Assembly (NCBI GenBank): GCA_026388095.1
Contig: JAPLKL010000079.1
Location: 62,001-126,000 of the forward strand
Reading direction: 5' to 3'
From: Elusimicrobiota bacterium
Lineage (GTDB): Bacteria; Elusimicrobiota; Elusimicrobia; UBA1565; UBA9628
DNA: 64,000 bases
Shown: positions 5,350 through 58,528 of the stretch, piece by piece
Layout: each line of letters begins with the position of its first letter
How positions within the stretch are numbered: position 1 is the first letter of the stretch
The notes under the pieces: generated by a model
Told to the model about the DNA's origin: nothing
Database searches by the model: none
What the model saw: the letters and a program-made list of their open reading frames with translations, nothing else
Made by a program: the position numbers and the translations under genes

Positions 5350-6317
5350 ACCAGGGGCTCACCGCGGCGCAGGAGCATCTGCTGCGGCTCAACGCCGCCG
5401 CGACCATGGGGGCGGACCGCTCGCGCGGCTTCGACGCCCTCGGCGAATGGCGGCGCGCCCAGGAGATGGGGGTGAGCCTTCTGTTCCGGGACGAGCCCGG
5501 CTACCCGGAGCTGCTGCGTTCGATAACGGACGCCCCGCTGGTCCTGTACGTCTGGGGCCGGCTCGACGCCGGGCGCGACGCCCTGGCTTTCGTGGGCTCG
5601 CGCCAGCCCACGCCTTACGGCCGCCGCATGACGCGACAACTGGTCCGCGACGCGTCCGCGCGCTTCGTCATCACCAGCGGTCTGGCGCGCGGCATCGACA
5701 CGGAAGCCCATCGGGCCGCGCTCGAGTCCCAAGGGACGACTTGGGCGGTGCTGGGCAGCGGGCTGGGGCGCATCTATCCGCCGGAGAACGAGGCCTTGGC
5801 CCGGGAGATCGTCGCCGGCCGCGGCTGCGTGCTCAGCGAGTTCCCCATGGACGCCGAGCCGCTGCCGGGGCATTTCCCGCGCCGCAACCGCATCGTGGCG
5901 GGCTTGTGCTGGGGGACCGTGGTCGTCGAGGGGCGCGACAAGTCCGGTTCGCTGATCACCGCGCGCCTGGCGGCGCAGCAGGGCCGGGAGGTCTTCGCCG
6001 TGCCCGGGCCGGCCGACTCGCCGCTCAGCGAGGCGCCGCTGCGGCTCATCAGCCAGGGCGCCAACATGGTCAGGTGCATGGCGGACATCTGGCCGGAGCT
6101 TCCCCCGTCGTGCCAGGAGGCTCCCGTCCGGCCGCTTGTGGCCCCGGCGCATGAAAAAATCCTACAATTGCTGGGCTCCGAAACGCGCTCCGTCGCGGAG
6201 CTCGGTGCGGAATCCGGCCTGGACATCTCCAGCCTGACCCAGACGCTTTTTGAACTGGAGCTCCAAGACTTGGTCGAAGCCGTGCCTGGACAGCGCTATG
6301 CCAAAAAAAGCAGCTAA
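5346..6317 (+). CDS. dprA: DNA processing protein DprA
   Basis: A 323-residue DprA/Smf. It has the Rossmann-like core with VGSRQPTPYG, TSGLARGIDTEAH, LGSGLGRIYPPEN and the ssDNA/RecA-loading signature FPRRNRIVAGL, then GSLITARLAAQQGREVFAVPG. The C-terminal 70 residues form a winged-helix DML1-like domain. DprA binds incoming single-stranded DNA in the cytoplasm, protects it and loads RecA. Start GTG at 5346 overlaps the HTH gene stop. Its stop lies inside the first codons of topA; the dprA-topA-xer order is a recognised conserved arrangement. With comM upstream, natural transformation is likely encoded. Confidence 0.94.
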   Translation: MNQGLTAAQEHLLRLNAAATMGADRSRGFDALGEWRRAQEMGVSLLFRDEPGYPELLRSITDAPLVLYVWGRLDAGRDALAFVGSRQPTPYGRRMTRQLVRDASARFVITSGLARGIDTEAHRAALESQGTTWAVLGSGLGRIYPPENEALAREIVAGRGCVLSEFPMDAEPLPGHFPRRNRIVAGLCWGTVVVEGRDKSGSLITARLAAQQGREVFAVPGPADSPLSEAPLRLISQGANMVRCMADIWPELPPSCQEAPVRPLVAPAHEKILQLLGSETRSVAELGAESGLDISSLTQTLFELELQDLVEAVPGQRYAKKSS

Positions 6318-29575: not shown

Positions 29576-31282
29576 GTGCTCTCCGCCCAGAGTTCGAATC
29601 TCCTCCTGCTCTGCGTGCTGTTCTGCGGGTTCCTGGCGGGCGGCTTGCGCGCCCCCCTGGTCGCAGCTCCGGTCCTGGCCTGCGTCGCGCTGACCGCGCT
29701 CCTGGGCCCCACGCCGGTCGGTGCGATCCTCAGGCCGTGGCTCTATTTCCTGGGCTGGCTGGCCCTCTCCATCTGCGCCAGCCCACAGCCCTTCACCGGC
29801 TTGGCCGCCGTCTCCCGTTGGGGCACTACGGCGCTCTATTTCTGCTTGGCCGCCTCCTTTTGGGGGGAGGCGGAGCGGCGCCGATGGTTCTGGGCCTTGG
29901 CCGTCTGCGCCGCGGTCCTGGCCGTCTGCGCCGTCGTGATCCAAATCCCAAGCTATCCGTATGTCGGCGTCCTTCCGCCCTACTACAACTACACCTGCTT
30001 CGTGCAAGCGGCTCTGCTCTGCGCCGCCTTCGCCGCGCTGCTGCGGCGGGATGGGCCGCAGGGAGCCCCGCGCTGGGCCCTCGTCGCGATCGCGGCTGCG
30101 GCCCTCTTGGAGATATGTTTGGCGCATTCGCGCGGAGCTTTGGTGGCCGCAGCCGCGGGCACGGGCGTGTTCGTCTGGAGGCACGCGCCTCGGCGCCGGC
30201 TGCTGCCTTTGGCCGTGGCCCTGGCAGCCTTGCTCGCTCTGACGACCGTGGCCAAGATCCAGGTGGCCAGGGCCTTCAAGAGGCCGCAGATCTGGAAGGC
30301 GGCCCTCCAGTGCGCCTGGGACCATCCCATCCTGGGGGCCGGCCCGGGGCGGTTCGCCGACGCCTTCCTCCGGCACAACTTCCCCGTCGGCTACGGGGTG
30401 GGCAACTTCCGCGCTCGCGCCGACCACGCGCATAGCGAGGTCCTGGAGTCCCTGGCTGAGTTCGGCGTCCCCGGACTATTGCTCCTATTGGCCGCGCTCT
30501 GGGCTTCTCTCAAGCCCCCGCCTCCGGAGAGGTCGACCTGGACCCGGGAAGCGGGTTTGGCCGCTTTCGCCAGCATGTCAGTCCAGTGCCTCTTCGACAA
30601 CATACTCCAACTGCCCGCTCTGGGCCTGCTCTATGTCTCGGCCCTCGCCGTGGCGTCTGCGGTATCGGAAGTTCCGCAGGCACCGGCGGGACGGACTTCC
30701 TTACCGCGGGCGCAGCCGGAGCCTGTGGGGAGGTCCTCCTGGAAAAGTCTGGCCTGGGCGTGTCTGCTCATGGCCTCTGTCTTCTGGATACCCGGCCGGC
30801 TCGTCGAGCGCTGGCAGGCCTCGGGCCGGCCCGGGGCGCTCATGCGGGCCGTGCGGCTGGCTCCGGCGGACCCATACCTGCGGGAGGGCCTTTACCAGGC
30901 TTGGCTCTCGCAGCGCCCTCCGCAGGTCGATGAGGCTTTGGTCCAGCTGGCCCAGGCCGAGGCGCTGAGTCCTTTCAACGCGGTCTACCCCGAGGAGAGC
31001 GCCCAGCTCCTCGGGAGCAGGGGGGCCTGGCCGCAGGTCCTCGCTGCCGCGGACCGGGCCGTTGCGCTGGAGCCGGATTATCTGGCGGCGCGGTTGTCGC
31101 GCACCGAAGCGCTGATCCGTCTGGGGCGCAGTTCAGAGGCCCGCGGCGAGTTGTCCGAGATCGGCCGGAGGAGCTTGGCCCTGGGGGCTCAGCCCAACAA
31201 AGAGCCGGGCTATGTCGCCTTCATCCGGGGATTCGACCGGGCTGCCTACGAAAGACTGATCCTGCAGGCCGGCTCAGACTGA
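29576..31282 (+). CDS. O-antigen ligase / polymerase-like membrane protein with C-terminal TPR
   Basis: About 568 residues. Around ten membrane helices occupy residues 10-370. The Wzy_C/O-antigen-ligase signature lies at about 225-310 (HPILGAGPGRFADAFLRHN, RADHAHSEVLESLAEFGVPG). The C-terminal 140 residues are TPR-like helices (QVLAAADRAVALEPDYLAAR). Such proteins transfer or polymerise glycans at the periplasmic face. Start is uncertain: GTG 29576 is the first usual start in frame after the preceding gene. A palindromic repeat (30657-30714) is embedded in frame between the membrane and TPR parts. The 3' end overlaps the convergent gene by 9 bases. Confidence 0.82.
   Translation: MLSAQSSNLLLLCVLFCGFLAGGLRAPLVAAPVLACVALTALLGPTPVGAILRPWLYFLGWLALSICASPQPFTGLAAVSRWGTTALYFCLAASFWGEAERRRWFWALAVCAAVLAVCAVVIQIPSYPYVGVLPPYYNYTCFVQAALLCAAFAALLRRDGPQGAPRWALVAIAAAALLEICLAHSRGALVAAAAGTGVFVWRHAPRRRLLPLAVALAALLALTTVAKIQVARAFKRPQIWKAALQCAWDHPILGAGPGRFADAFLRHNFPVGYGVGNFRARADHAHSEVLESLAEFGVPGLLLLLAALWASLKPPPPERSTWTREAGLAAFASMSVQCLFDNILQLPALGLLYVSALAVASAVSEVPQAPAGRTSLPRAQPEPVGRSSWKSLAWACLLMASVFWIPGRLVERWQASGRPGALMRAVRLAPADPYLREGLYQAWLSQRPPQVDEALVQLAQAEALSPFNAVYPEESAQLLGSRGAWPQVLAAADRAVALEPDYLAARLSRTEALIRLGRSSEARGELSEIGRRSLALGAQPNKEPGYVAFIRGFDRAAYERLILQAGSD
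30657..30714. repeat. 58-bp palindromic repeat, family 2, copy B (in coding sequence)
   Basis: 50/58 identical to 18761-18818. Here it contains the perfect pairs GGAAGT/ACTTCC and CGGAA-G-TTCCG. It is translated in frame as a Ser/Pro/Ala/Arg-rich linker (SEVPQAPAGRTSLPRAQPEP), which separates the membrane domain from the last helix and TPR region. Confidence 0.7.
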
Positions 31283-31732
31283 GGCGGCCGGGCCCGGTTC
31301 CGTGGACTGCGCGGGCTCGGGCAGGTAATCCAACTCGATGCGGCATTTGGCTTGGCAGCCGCAGGTCTGGGTGGAGCCGGCGAAGATCGGCTCCGGGCAG
31401 ACGCCGCCGCTCTCGCTGAGGGTCCGGTGCTTGGCCACGGCGTTGGCGATGGCTTCCGAGAAGTCGAAGTGGCCCGAACCGCAGCGGCCCGGGCAAGGAG
31501 CGTCGAACCGGTACTGGTCGTTGGGCTTGAGGTCCATCACCTTCTCTTCCAGGAGCTGCTGCTGGGCGGAGAGGAACTGCAAAGTGACCTTGAGGTGCTT
31601 GACGAAGGGATAACGGACTCCCAGGACTCCCCCGGAGGACTCGCGGTTGTGGGCGTCGGCGGCGCGCTGGACCTTCTCCTCGTTCTTGTTGGGTCCGGCG
31701 TTCTTGCGTCTTTTCTTGAAATATCTTGCCAT
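31274..31732 (-). CDS. Cys-rich small protein, unknown (possible zinc binding)
   Basis: A 152-residue protein starting MARYFKKRRKNAGPNKN, hence basic at its N-terminus. The C-terminal half has six cysteines in CPGRCGSGHFDF, GGVCPE and TCGCQAKC, a pattern suited to zinc. There is no signal peptide. I do not recognise a family. TATACT lies 9 bases before the ATG and there is no ribosome site, so the message is probably leaderless. Confidence 0.68.
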   Translation of the reverse strand: MARYFKKRRKNAGPNKNEEKVQRAADAHNRESSGGVLGVRYPFVKHLKVTLQFLSAQQQLLEEKVMDLKPNDQYRFDAPCPGRCGSGHFDFSEAIANAVAKHRTLSESGGVCPEPIFAGSTQTCGCQAKCRIELDYLPEPAQSTEPGPAASV

Positions 31733-55945: not shown

Positions 55946-56668
55946 TTATAGCCTCTCTGGCTTTGAAAGTGCCAAGGGACGTGCGGACGAGAATGTGAAT
56001 CCCAGCAAGCTCATTGCGACGATCAATACGACCGCGTGACGCGAGATGCTTGGTGGGGCAGACCAGGCCAGAACGCAGAGGTTCCAGCCCGAGTGCAGGA
56101 CCAGGGGCACTAGGAGCGAGCGTGTGCGTAGCGCGGTGATACAAAGCACCACGGAGATGATGGCCAGCGCAATGGCCTCTGTCCGTGTCGGGAAATGCAT
56201 CGTCACGAAGAAAACTGAGACCAGTGCTGTGGAGATAGCGGGCGAACCGAGGCGGCGAAGCAGAAAATTGAAGCAAAGTCCTCTATAGAAGAACTCTTCG
56301 GCCGCGGGCCCGGCCGTCGTGAAAGCGACGTAGTCGAAGGCCGTGTTCACCCCCAGCGGCATCCGACCCCCGGAGGAGGTAATCGTGCCGGTTAAGGCGA
56401 CAGCGGCGAGGGCGAAGATGGTAATGAGAACCAGCCTGTGCGTCGGCCCCGGGTGCCACGATATTGGGCGCAAGGGATATCTGCGGGACCACAACAGGAC
56501 CCCTCCGAGCATCCAGATGTTCGTGAAGATGAATCTCTGCCAGGAAACATCTGGCCTGCCAAGCCACCCTGGCAATCCCAGGATGATGGCAAAGCCGGTG
56601 GCGATGACCATGATGACGCTGGCCTCATCGACAACTGCCGGTTGCGGCGCGGTCTCTGCGGCGCTCAT
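55946..56668 (-). CDS. CPBP-family intramembrane metalloprotease
   Basis: A 240-residue protein with about seven membrane helices. The CPBP/Abi motifs are AAEEFFYRGLCFNFLLRRLG (Glu-Glu and Arg), FVTMHFPTRTEAIALA (His) and LVLHSGWNLCVLAW (His/Asn). The family includes Rce1-type CAAX proteases and bacteriocin self-immunity proteins. The ATG overlaps the stop of a 36-residue membrane peptide gene (ATGA), so the two are translated together. Substrate is unknown. Confidence 0.88.
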   Translation of the reverse strand: MSAAETAPQPAVVDEASVIMVIATGFAIILGLPGWLGRPDVSWQRFIFTNIWMLGGVLLWSRRYPLRPISWHPGPTHRLVLITIFALAAVALTGTITSSGGRMPLGVNTAFDYVAFTTAGPAAEEFFYRGLCFNFLLRRLGSPAISTALVSVFFVTMHFPTRTEAIALAIISVVLCITALRTRSLLVPLVLHSGWNLCVLAWSAPPSISRHAVVLIVAMSLLGFTFSSARPLALSKPERL

Positions 56669-56775
56669 CGAGGTTTCTTGAGCCGCGACTTGATCAGCGA
56701 CCACGCCAAGCGGACGAGCAGGAACACGACAGCGAATACGAAGACCAACAGGAGGCTGGGGACCCAAGGACTCAT
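56665..56775 (-). CDS. Tiny membrane peptide (36 aa), copy 2
   Basis: MSPWVPSLLLVFVFAVVF begins a single-helix peptide with a basic tail (SRLKKPR). It is paralogous to the 37-residue peptide at 56871-56984. Start is chosen at the conserved MSPW; homology of the DNA also covers the preceding GHQA codons, so a longer N-terminus is possible. Its stop overlaps the CPBP protease start, giving coupled translation. Function unknown; a membrane-active peptide, a protease partner or a substrate are possible. Confidence 0.6.
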   Translation of the reverse strand: MSPWVPSLLLVFVFAVVFLLVRLAWSLIKSRLKKPR

Positions 56776-56870
56776 GGCCGCAGCCTGATGCCCTGTCCCT
56801 AAACTGGCATGACGGGATGCTGCGAAGAGTTGCTGCAGGGTGGTGAGCGACATGCCCAGGGCCTCCGCGA

Positions 56871-56984
56871 TCAAGATTGCTGCTTCCCATCGCGCGACTT
56901 CATCTTCTTCCATCCCAAGCGGGAAATGAGGAACAACGCCGCGGCGCAGAAAACAAGGAACAAGGCCGGCAGCCATGGGCTCAT
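56871..56984 (-). CDS. Tiny membrane peptide (37 aa), copy 1
   Basis: MSPWLPALFLVFCAAALF opens a single-helix peptide ending in a charged tail (GWKKMKSRDGKQQS). It matches the second copy at 56665-56775 in MSPW, LVF and the length of helix and tail. A GAGG lies just before the ATG. An in-frame upstream ATG (57068) would add 28 residues, but the paralogue does not support it. A 7-bp-stem hairpin (57012-57028) lies 28 bases upstream. Confidence 0.58.
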   Translation of the reverse strand: MSPWLPALFLVFCAAALFLISRLGWKKMKSRDGKQQS

Positions 56985-57310
56985 GACCTCGGCTTGATGA
57001 CCACCCATCGCGCTTCCCGCGGGGAAGCAGTTCTCAAGAAGTGTGCATCGGATGAGATAGTTCGTCATTCCCGTAACCTCCGTCGATATCGGACCGTACG
57101 CCCCGGCAAGCCGGTAACCGCTATCGCCGCGTATCTACAACACGGACGCGCCAAGCGCATTTTGGAGCATGTCGAGGCATATCCCTTGCAAAGCCGAGCC
57201 AGATTCTGAAAGCGCTATCTTACCACACCTTGACCGCGGCGGGATGCTTTGTAGACCGGGCGCTAACCTAGCCGGGTCCGCCGCAAGCGTCCCAGCCATC
57301 CTCCGCGGGT
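56985..57310. other. Non-coding gap between pilin and peptide genes
   Basis: A 326-base stretch with no convincing gene. It holds a 7-bp-stem hairpin (57012-57028, GCTTCCC/GGGAAGC), and GC-rich partial dyads around 57228-57290 that could fold in the pilin 3' untranslated region. On the minus strand GGTAAGATAGC near 57215-57225 resembles a -10 region, which could start a transcript for the downstream peptides and CPBP protease. Confidence 0.4.
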
Positions 57311-57499
57311 TCAGTGCTCTCCACCCATCTGTGTGGCCACGGATGAGATCTGATTCTTGATCTGGTCGAAGAGTCCGGGCATGAACCTCTTCATGGCCAC
57401 GCCGGAGATAAGGACGACTCCGACGACGACGGTGAGCATGAGCAGGTACTCCACGGTATTCTGGCCCTTCCGGTTGGAGAACAAACCTTTCCATTTCAT
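57311..57499 (-). CDS. Flp-like type IVb pilin
   Basis: A 62-residue prepilin. The class III signal is short and basic (MKWKGLFSNRKG), with cleavage expected after Gly12 to leave QNTVEYLLML. Glu at +5 and Tyr at +6 are the Flp/Tad pilin hallmarks, needed for processing and assembly. The hydrophobic helix runs about 18-37, and the short C-terminal region is FMPGLFDQIKNQISSV. Tad pili mediate surface attachment. Tad assembly genes and the TadV/PilD peptidase are not in the window. GGGAGG precedes the ATG by 4 bases. The upstream region carries the same promoter-like motif as the sigma gene. Confidence 0.85.
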   Translation of the reverse strand: MKWKGLFSNRKGQNTVEYLLMLTVVVGVVLISGVAMKRFMPGLFDQIKNQISSVATQMGGEH

Positions 57500-57501
57500 A
57501 T

Positions 57502-57549
57502 GGCCTCCCGAGCGGTTGCCTCGCTCGTGGTCTCAGACACGGGAGGGCC
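57502..57549 (-). promoter_or_regulatory. Hairpin that can sequester the pilin ribosome site
   Basis: In minus-strand RNA, GGCC-C-TCCCG (57540-57549) can pair with CGGGAGGCC (57502-57510), which contains the pilin Shine-Dalgarno, with one bulge. An inner GAGCG/CGCTC stem lies next to it. The 5' arm falls inside the spacer of the ECF-type promoter, so only longer read-through transcripts would contain it. Confidence 0.5.
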
Positions 57550-57560
57550 TGGAAAGGTTC
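57532..57560 (-). promoter_or_regulatory. ECF-type promoter of pilin gene
   Basis: GAACCT (57560-57555), a 17-base spacer, then TCTGAG (57537-57532). The wider motif GAACYTTTC-N13-GTCTGAGA is identical in form and spacing to that before the sigma gene. It resembles the RpoE consensus GAACTT/TCTGA. Predicted leader is about 25-30 bases with a ribosome site. Confidence 0.65.
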
Positions 57561-57585
57561 TTGGAATTCGGTAAATTCCTAGTTA

Positions 57586-57975
57586 CTACTTGCCCTGTCC
57601 TAGCGAGGTGGCGGCCCCGGAGATCATCTGTTGGATCGAACTGAAGAGGCCAGGCATGAAGCGCTTGAGAGCGACGCCGGTGACCAGTACGACGCCGACG
57701 ACCACGGTCAAAGCAAACACGTACACCAACGAGTCCATCGGCTCGGAACGCCTGGCCACGGGCCGCAGACGGTCCCGAATTTTGTCCAGCAGCCTGGCAG
57801 GCAAGGCTCGCTTGCCATGCTGGCGGAAAGCCGCGCTGGCCTTCTTGAAGCGCTCCAACTCCCGGCCGCAGGAGGCGCAGGCGCGCAGGTGCTCGGCGAC
57901 CTGGGCCTTGCGCTCCGCCGGCAGTTCGCCGTCGAGGAATGCGGAGAGGTCTTCCGCGCTCACATCATGCGCCAT
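57586..57975 (-). CDS. Zinc-finger anti-sigma factor with pilin-like transmembrane segment
   Basis: A 129-residue protein. Residues 1-45 are a zf-HC2 anti-sigma domain with the H-x3-C-x2-C motif (His29, Cys33, Cys36 in EHLRACASCGREL). A basic linker leads to a membrane segment at about 85-104 and a C-terminal tail. From Tyr85 to Phe111 it is identical to pilin residues 18-44 at 21 of 27 positions, including LTVVVGVVL and KRFMPGLF. The pilin cleavage Gly and Glu+5 are replaced (DSLVY instead of NTVEY), so it should stay unprocessed. It overlaps the sigma gene stop by 1 base. Confidence 0.85.
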   Translation of the reverse strand: MAHDVSAEDLSAFLDGELPAERKAQVAEHLRACASCGRELERFKKASAAFRQHGKRALPARLLDKIRDRLRPVARRSEPMDSLVYVFALTVVVGVVLVTGVALKRFMPGLFSSIQQMISGAATSLGQGK

Positions 57976-58499
57976 TACTCCTCCTCCTGGCCGAGCCGCT
58001 GCGCGAGCAGCATGCGGGCCCTGACCAAGCGCGACTTCACGGTCCCCAGCGGAACATCCAAGGATTCGGCGATCTCGCCGTAGCTGCGGCCATCAAGCTC
58101 GCGCAGCACCAGCACCGCCCGTTCCTCAGGGGTGAGTCCAGCGAGGGCCGATTCGATGCGCGCCTTGAGATCCTGGGCTTGCGCCTGCGCCTCCGGGCCG
58201 GGGGACTGATCCGCCGCGTCTGCCGGCTCCGAGTCCACGGCTTTCGGGTCGTCGGCCCGGAAGAACCGCAGGAAGCGCCACTTCGCCTTGGCGCGCAGGA
58301 GGTTCTTCCAGGTGTTCACTGTGATCCGATAGACCCAGGAGCCGGGATCGGCTTCTCCGCGGAAAGCTGGCAAGCCGCTCACCGCCTTGAGAAGCGCCTC
58401 CTGGGTCAGGTCCTCCGCGTCCGTGCGGTCGCCGGTCAGGCGCAAGGCCAGGTTGTAGACCATGGCCGCGTAGCGCTCGACCAACTCTTCCGGCGTCAT
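57975..58499 (-). CDS. ECF RNA polymerase sigma factor
   Basis: A 174-residue sigma-70 family protein lacking regions 1 and 3. Region 2 (about 6-75) has MVYNLALRLTGDRTDAEDLTQEAL and GSWVYRITVNTWKNLLRAK. An acidic linker follows, and region 4 (about 118-170) has LTPEERAVLVLRELDGRSYGEIAESL and VPLGTVKSRLVRAR. It directs RNA polymerase to a dedicated promoter set when released from its anti-sigma factor, encoded immediately downstream. ATG at 58499 abuts the -10 of a candidate self-promoter; a TTG at 58484 (codon 6) would fit a transcript from it. Confidence 0.94.
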   Translation of the reverse strand: MTPEELVERYAAMVYNLALRLTGDRTDAEDLTQEALLKAVSGLPAFRGEADPGSWVYRITVNTWKNLLRAKAKWRFLRFFRADDPKAVDSEPADAADQSPGPEAQAQAQDLKARIESALAGLTPEERAVLVLRELDGRSYGEIAESLDVPLGTVKSRLVRARMLLAQRLGQEEE

Positions 58500-58528
58500 C
58501 TCAGACCCGGCTCCGGGGAGAAAAGTTC
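58500..58528 (-). promoter_or_regulatory. ECF-type promoter before sigma gene
   Basis: GAACTT (58528-58523), a 17-base spacer, then TCTGAG (58505-58500) directly before the annotated ATG. It has the same GAACYTTTC-N13-GTCTGAGA motif as the pilin gene, suggesting self-regulation. The initiation point would fall about five bases inside the gene, which implies a downstream start codon. Confidence 0.5.

Follow-up and report, generated by a model that had tools for sequence, protein, structure and literature searches.

An anti-sigma factor bearing a copy of the Tad major pilin's tail suggests a pilus-state circuit in Elusimicrobiota

A three-gene cassette of Elusimicrobiota joins an ECF sigma factor to an anti-sigma factor that ends in a copy of the tail of the Tad major pilin, and places a second, processable Flp pilin beside them. 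On balance, we favour the reading that this is a dedicated pilus-state circuit, in which tail mimicry reads the major pilin and the second Flp pilin is deployed. The cassette lies in the window, by which we mean the whole stretch of 64,000 nucleotides analysed here, taken from a 4.6-Mb Elusimicrobiota genome (G000). Its sigma gene (57975..58499, (-)) encodes 174 aa with Sigma70_r2 (5e-18) and Sigma70_r4_2 (2e-17) domains; its anti-sigma gene (57586..57975, (-)) encodes 129 aa that comprise a ZAS domain, a membrane helix and the pilin-like tail; and the adjacent Flp prepilin gene (57311..57499, (-)) encodes 62 aa with an intact GQNTVEY signal, a helix that resembles that of the major pilin and a tail that differs from it. 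Comparison of the reading frames revealed that the sigma and anti-sigma genes overlap, and the coordinates, frames and proteins of all three genes match those given in a preliminary description of this DNA. At 56665-56976 and 56871-57068 (-) of the window, two small ORFs overlap and resemble each other at their ends (MSPWVPSLLLVFVFAVVFLLVRLAW and MSPWLPALFLVFCAAALFLISRLGW); each apparently encodes one membrane helix, and neither had a Pfam match.

Searches of 57 relatives and then of 341 genomes of the phylum recovered the full-length cassette (ECF sigma, zf-HC2 anti-sigma, small Flp prepilin) from 14 Elusimicrobiota genomes in three families, labelled f1, f2 and f14, and a damaged copy of the fusion from one more genome, G032. 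The order of sigma, fusion anti-sigma and processable pilin is kept, with an extra gene between anti-sigma and pilin in G017 and a pilin about 650 bases away in G035. The sigma gene adjoins the fusion anti-sigma gene in 14/14 cassettes, that of G037 being cut by a contig end, while the flanks of the 14 cassettes are mostly unrelated between genomes. In a tree that included the phylum's paralogous ECF factors, the cassette sigmas grouped in a single clade (support 90/86), which suggests that the cassette arose once. The earlier claim of a relationship between anti-sigma factor and pilin survives comparison with these homologous loci, where the fusion architecture is conserved.

The anti-sigma factor was previously credited with a normal zf-HC2 domain, and this is borne out: residues 8-36 (57868..57954, (-)) match PF13490 above its cut-off (E 8.4e-10), the H-x3-C-x2-C pattern is present, and H29, C33 and C36 are invariant across the 14 copies. 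When the family profile was compared to solved structures, the best relative was RsiW (5wuq, 2.5e-9). By its domain and its pairing with an ECF sigma gene, the protein classifies as a ZAS anti-sigma factor, and it is predicted to inhibit that sigma. An AlphaFold2 model of it shows one helix from residue 82 to 126, with low confidence in that part. Where the pilin has KGQNTVEYLL, the window's anti-sigma factor has EPMDSLVYVF, and we regard it as a pilin mimic and not a pilin because the prepilin cleavage site and Glu5-Tyr6 are missing. The loss of the cleavage Gly, noted before for the window copy, extends to all other pairs except G043, in which an RG aligns by chance; the loss of Glu+5 is likewise real in the window copy but fails as a general rule, since G006 and G044 have Glu there.

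A direct count upholds the reported 21/27 identities between the anti-sigma factor (YVFALTVVVGVVLVTGVALKRFMPGLF) and the adjacent pilin (YLLMLTVVVGVVLISGVAMKRFMPGLF). When the anti-sigma factor was compared to its own genome, both the Tad-locus pilin (6e-20) and the adjacent pilin (9e-12) scored far above chance. The former is the Tad major pilin, encoded on another contig (C41) among genes for a secretin (8e-40), RcpC/CpaB (8e-17), TadE (3e-11), a single protein that combines CbiA and T2SSE (TadZ/TadA) and two T2SSF proteins (TadB/C), a gene content by which the locus qualifies as a Tad pilus system. The pilin-like tail of the anti-sigma factor spans residues 104-129 (57589..57666, (-)). From the invariant Lys104 to residue 127, it (KRFMPGLFSSIQQMISGAATSLGQGK) is identical to the tail of the major pilin (KRFMPGLFSSIQQMISGAATSLGQGN) at 24/24 positions, as against 14/24 for the tail of the adjacent pilin (KRFMPGLFDQIKNQISSVATQMGG). 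The end of the anti-sigma factor had been described as a paralogous copy of the neighbouring pilin; that it is a pilin-derived C-terminal segment stands, but its closest template is the Tad major pilin. The adjacent pilin was rejected as template throughout: in each genome that yielded a Tad major pilin, the latter was the closer of the two.

Across 11 genome pairs, namely the cassette genomes in which a major pilin was found, with G044 set aside, the 24-residue anti-sigma tail matches its own major pilin at 15-24 positions of 24 and its own adjacent pilin at 9-15. The draft genomes G041, G183 and G032 were searched for a major pilin, and none was found in them. In family f2, KPQ.SGIFNQ.MGMISGAA occurs in both anti-sigma factor and major pilin, in G006 both carry SQIQTMISGAAGSLGQG, and in G017 both stop exactly at LGQ. 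When anti-sigmas and pilins were re-paired within families, 6 of 3456 arrangements scored as high as the real one; f2 is uninformative in this test because its pilins are nearly identical. Ranked among 44 distinct major-type tails, a genome's own tail is the best or tied best match in G000, G006, G017, G035, G043 and G191, and falls within the best ten of the 44 (ties counted) in the remaining genomes. Taken together, these sequence comparisons indicate that the anti-sigma tail follows the major pilin of the genome or family to which it belongs, at the level of the genome in part of f1 and at that of the family in f14. In the f2 anti-sigmas of G035 and G037 (L045:4293-4790 and L046:247-726), the pilin-like tail is not the end of the protein: a linker rich in Gly, Ser and Pro follows, then another hydrophobic segment and a basic terminus, an arrangement that resembles a C-terminal sorting signal. 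In two long anti-sigmas of paralogous ECF operons (L004:910-1887 (-) and L093:3530-4462 (-)), a weak resemblance to the tail can be made out (PLQGMVSGAASDL; YSPAVFQAV...GGAAASAG); these proteins are perhaps older relatives of the fusion, or perhaps the resemblance is due to chance.

One exception was observed in G044, where an f1-type tail meets an f2-type major pilin, the sole one found, at 13/24 positions. The cassette sigma of this genome nests with that of G000 in the tree, and relatives of a gene flanking the cassette occur in f2, to which G044 belongs, but not in the window's genus; these placements fit horizontal transfer of the cassette, which is likelier than contamination. Simple contamination during binning was rejected because the flanking gene has kin in that genome's own family. 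At this locus (L041, G044:C76), the cassette seems to have passed from one family to another along with part of the rubredoxin gene end that lies ahead of it in the window's genus.

The identity of the tails was then set against their silent sites. The G000 tail pair has 0 non-synonymous differences over 55 sites and 12 synonymous differences over 17 (pS 0.71), and the G006 pair 0 over 54.8 and 11 over 17.2 (pS 0.64); a second Tad pilin of G006 gives a pS of 0.60 with the anti-sigma tail. Since the sigma genes of G000 and G006 differ less (pS 0.50), the two tail copies are at silent sites at least as diverged as the species. Three tail positions differ between G000 and G006, and in each genome both copies share the residues found there. 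Residues that stay identical while silent sites change point to selection at the protein level and not to recent gene conversion, which we rejected as the source of the identity. An old conversion near the species split is conceivable; judged from 17 synonymous sites only, selection must have kept the tails identical after any such event.

The part shared over the 11 genome pairs is the extracytoplasmic tail, not the membrane helix: within the window's genus 14/16 and 11/16 helix positions match between anti-sigma factor and major pilin, elsewhere 4-8/16. The adjacent pilin is the mirror image, with signal and helix near those of the major pilin and a different tail. Its class III-type signal conforms to G-Q-x-x-V-E-Y (GQNTVEYLL) and is followed by a hydrophobic helix; in Pfam, it scores just under or below the cut-offs for Class_IIIsignal (6e-5, 23.4 bits; cut-off 23.7) and Flp1_like (1e-5, 25.0 bits; cut-off 33.5). 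An AlphaFold2 model of this pilin shows two stacked helices, 13-39 and 41-59, and a search of solved structures with the pilin profile gave no match. Sensing had been proposed to work by like-with-like packing of membrane helices. Because the conserved mimic lies outside the membrane and the helix matches well only in the window's genus, this mode is not favoured; the comparison speaks for recognition through the outer tail, and against helix packing as the conserved principle.

A two-part, ECF-type promoter motif links the sigma gene to the adjacent pilin. In the window, GAAC-N18-GTCTGAG occurs before the sigma gene (58500..58528, (-); GAACTTTTCTCCCCGGAGCCGGGTCTGAG), and a second copy of the motif lies before the adjacent pilin (57532..57560, (-); GAACCTTTCCAGGCCCTCCCGTGTCTGAG). 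Across cassettes, the motif takes the form GAAC-N15..18-[TG]GTC[TC], with a background of 0.011 per 100 bases and strand, and it precedes the adjacent pilin in 14/14 cassettes. It keeps to the pilin and not to the anti-sigma gene in G017, with its inserted gene, and in G035, with its distant pilin. Before the sigma gene it is present in all seven readable f1/f2 cassettes (7/7; those of G024 and G037 are truncated at contig ends or unreadable) and in 0/5 f14 cassettes, and in f14 similar sites also occur near paralogous ECF factor loci. In several cassettes (L042:4302-4847, L043:3483-4001, L045:3775-4296 and L047:3363-3884), the start codon called for the sigma gene overlaps the -10-like part of the motif (TGTCCAAG, GTGTCTGAG), which probably means that translation begins a few codons further on or that the mRNA has hardly any leader.

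Genome-wide, a relaxed form, GAACYTTN{14,15}GTCTG, has exactly two sites in G000 and two in G006, all of them inside the cassette, and a backward control gave 0; G017 has five such sites, one of them in the cassette. With the strict pattern, G000 gave four sites and the backward control also four; of the G000 sites, two belong to the cassette, one lies at 31273-31300 of the window, among overlapping reading frames, and one at C11:20514. With the relaxed motif confined to the cassette of G000, the predicted regulon of this genome is limited to the cassette, and the second pilin would be the output; further members in G000 were rejected, the relaxed pattern having no site outside the cassette there or in G006. 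No motif was found immediately before the major pilins, and Tad genes were dropped as candidate targets for this reason. The same motif before sigma and target in G000 marks a predicted autoregulated ECF circuit, and the adjacent pilin is likely the sigma's target and not the thing sensed. That the anti-sigma factor senses a pilin, as first proposed, remains the most economical reading, that of a pilin-state sensor; the proposal erred in the partner, since the mimicked pilin is the Tad major pilin and the neighbour looks like the output.

In the circuit that we favour, the anti-sigma factor would span the inner membrane: on the cytoplasmic side its zinc-binding domain would hold the ECF sigma, and on the outer side it would expose a copy of the major Tad pilin's tail that cannot be cleaved. 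This tail would join the contacts made by the tail of the major pilin, most likely by packing with unassembled pilin in the membrane pool. Depending on the size of that pool or its state of assembly, the anti-sigma factor would be shielded or destroyed by regulated proteolysis, and the freed sigma would transcribe its own operon (in f1 and f2) and the adjacent second Flp pilin, which offers the same assembly helix with another tail. As for the sign of the response, our guess, by analogy with PilS, is that a depleted pool would lead to cleavage of the anti-sigma factor and production of the second pilin.

Other explanations of the copied tail were weighed against this circuit. A protease, chaperone or assembly protein, for example an Rce1-like one, might bind the tails of both the anti-sigma factor and the major pilin; pilins would then compete for this factor, and the sigma would report load on, or blockage of, assembly with no direct pilin contact. 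We think this rather unlikely. In its favour, mimicry is conserved in the tail, beyond the membrane, where site-1 proteases act. PrsW and Rce1-like proteins belong to one superfamily. Genes for Rce1-like proteases adjoin the cassette in 4/14 genomes. In the window, one such gene (CPBP; PF02517, E 1e-16) lies downstream at 55946..56890 (-), a candidate anti-sigma protease whose membership of the circuit is putative, and CPBP family genes also stand beside the cassettes of G041, G017 and G044, in other positions and orientations (L043:2722-3450; L042:3224-3955; L041:4661-5398 and 5433-6299), as candidate site-1 proteases. The ZAS domain, moreover, is like that of RsiW, which is cleaved by PrsW and destroyed by PrsW and RasP (PMC3498285). 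Against a shared factor, similarity revealed no such gene beside the other cassettes, whose neighbours were Pfam-scanned in part, the place and strand of the protease gene vary, and nothing ties these proteases to the pilin.

It is improbable that a pilin tail was fused once by accident as a mere membrane anchor, with gene conversion keeping up the similarity. The segment is short, such fusions arise easily and an old conversion could have occurred, but the residues are still identical where silent sites have diverged as between species, the helix that would be the anchor is the part not kept, and the promoter ties the cassette to another pilin in 14/14 cases. We hold it more improbable still that the anti-sigma factor is pulled into the base or platform of the pilus through its pilin-like part, so that mechanical pulling or assembly would free the sigma. 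The copied tail would indeed sit among pilins in the filament, and the copy extends to the membrane helix in the window's genus; elsewhere that helix is generic, the prepilin cleavage site is missing, and Glu5 and Tyr6, which together are required for Tad pilus assembly in Caulobacter (PMC11067988), are mostly lost.

The favoured circuit shares features with several known systems. In Pseudomonas aeruginosa, the membrane sensor PilS of PilS-PilR reads PilA in the membrane, contacting the major pilin in the inner membrane and adjusting pilin transcription (PMC6058289); here a comparable contact is predicted. The sensor there is a histidine kinase that has six membrane segments, whereas here an anti-sigma factor with a pilin-derived tail would do the sensing, with the second pilin as its likely target. 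In Caulobacter, Tad pilins, each of which touches six neighbours in the filament, are recycled to an inner-membrane reservoir, and the recycled pilins are proposed to act on PleC (PMC11067988). The likeness lies in an inner-membrane pool of Tad pilins acting on a regulator, but PleC is a kinase, with neither a pilin mimic nor an ECF sigma factor. With RsiW and other ZAS anti-sigmas, the protein shares the zf-HC2 domain, a single membrane helix and a short outer part. We are not aware that RsiW copies any other cellular protein in its outer part, whereas here that part is a pilin tail that appears to evolve along with the pilin. The outer part of RsgI of Clostridium thermocellum senses polysaccharide substrates (PMC12203970) and that of RsiV senses lysozyme (PMC4183432). 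As in these two cases, the outer part would sense what the regulon deals with; unlike them, with their external signals, it copies a subunit of the cell's own filament. Searches of open papers yielded no pilin-mimicking anti-sigma factor. To our knowledge, none built in this way has been described, and we see about an even chance that it represents a new class, in which the sensor mimics a filament subunit and has co-evolved to stay identical with it, letting the cell read pilus assembly and switch subunits.

How bacteria with Tad/Flp pili sense whether their pilins have been assembled is an open question, addressed mostly by work in Caulobacter, and this cassette may hold an answer. Its predicted regulon is tiny and defined, and with three small genes and two promoters the circuit could be rebuilt in a laboratory strain, where the co-varying tail positions provide a ready set of swaps for finding the contact that is sensed. 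Mimicry of a machine's own subunit may thereby be one route to a sensor.
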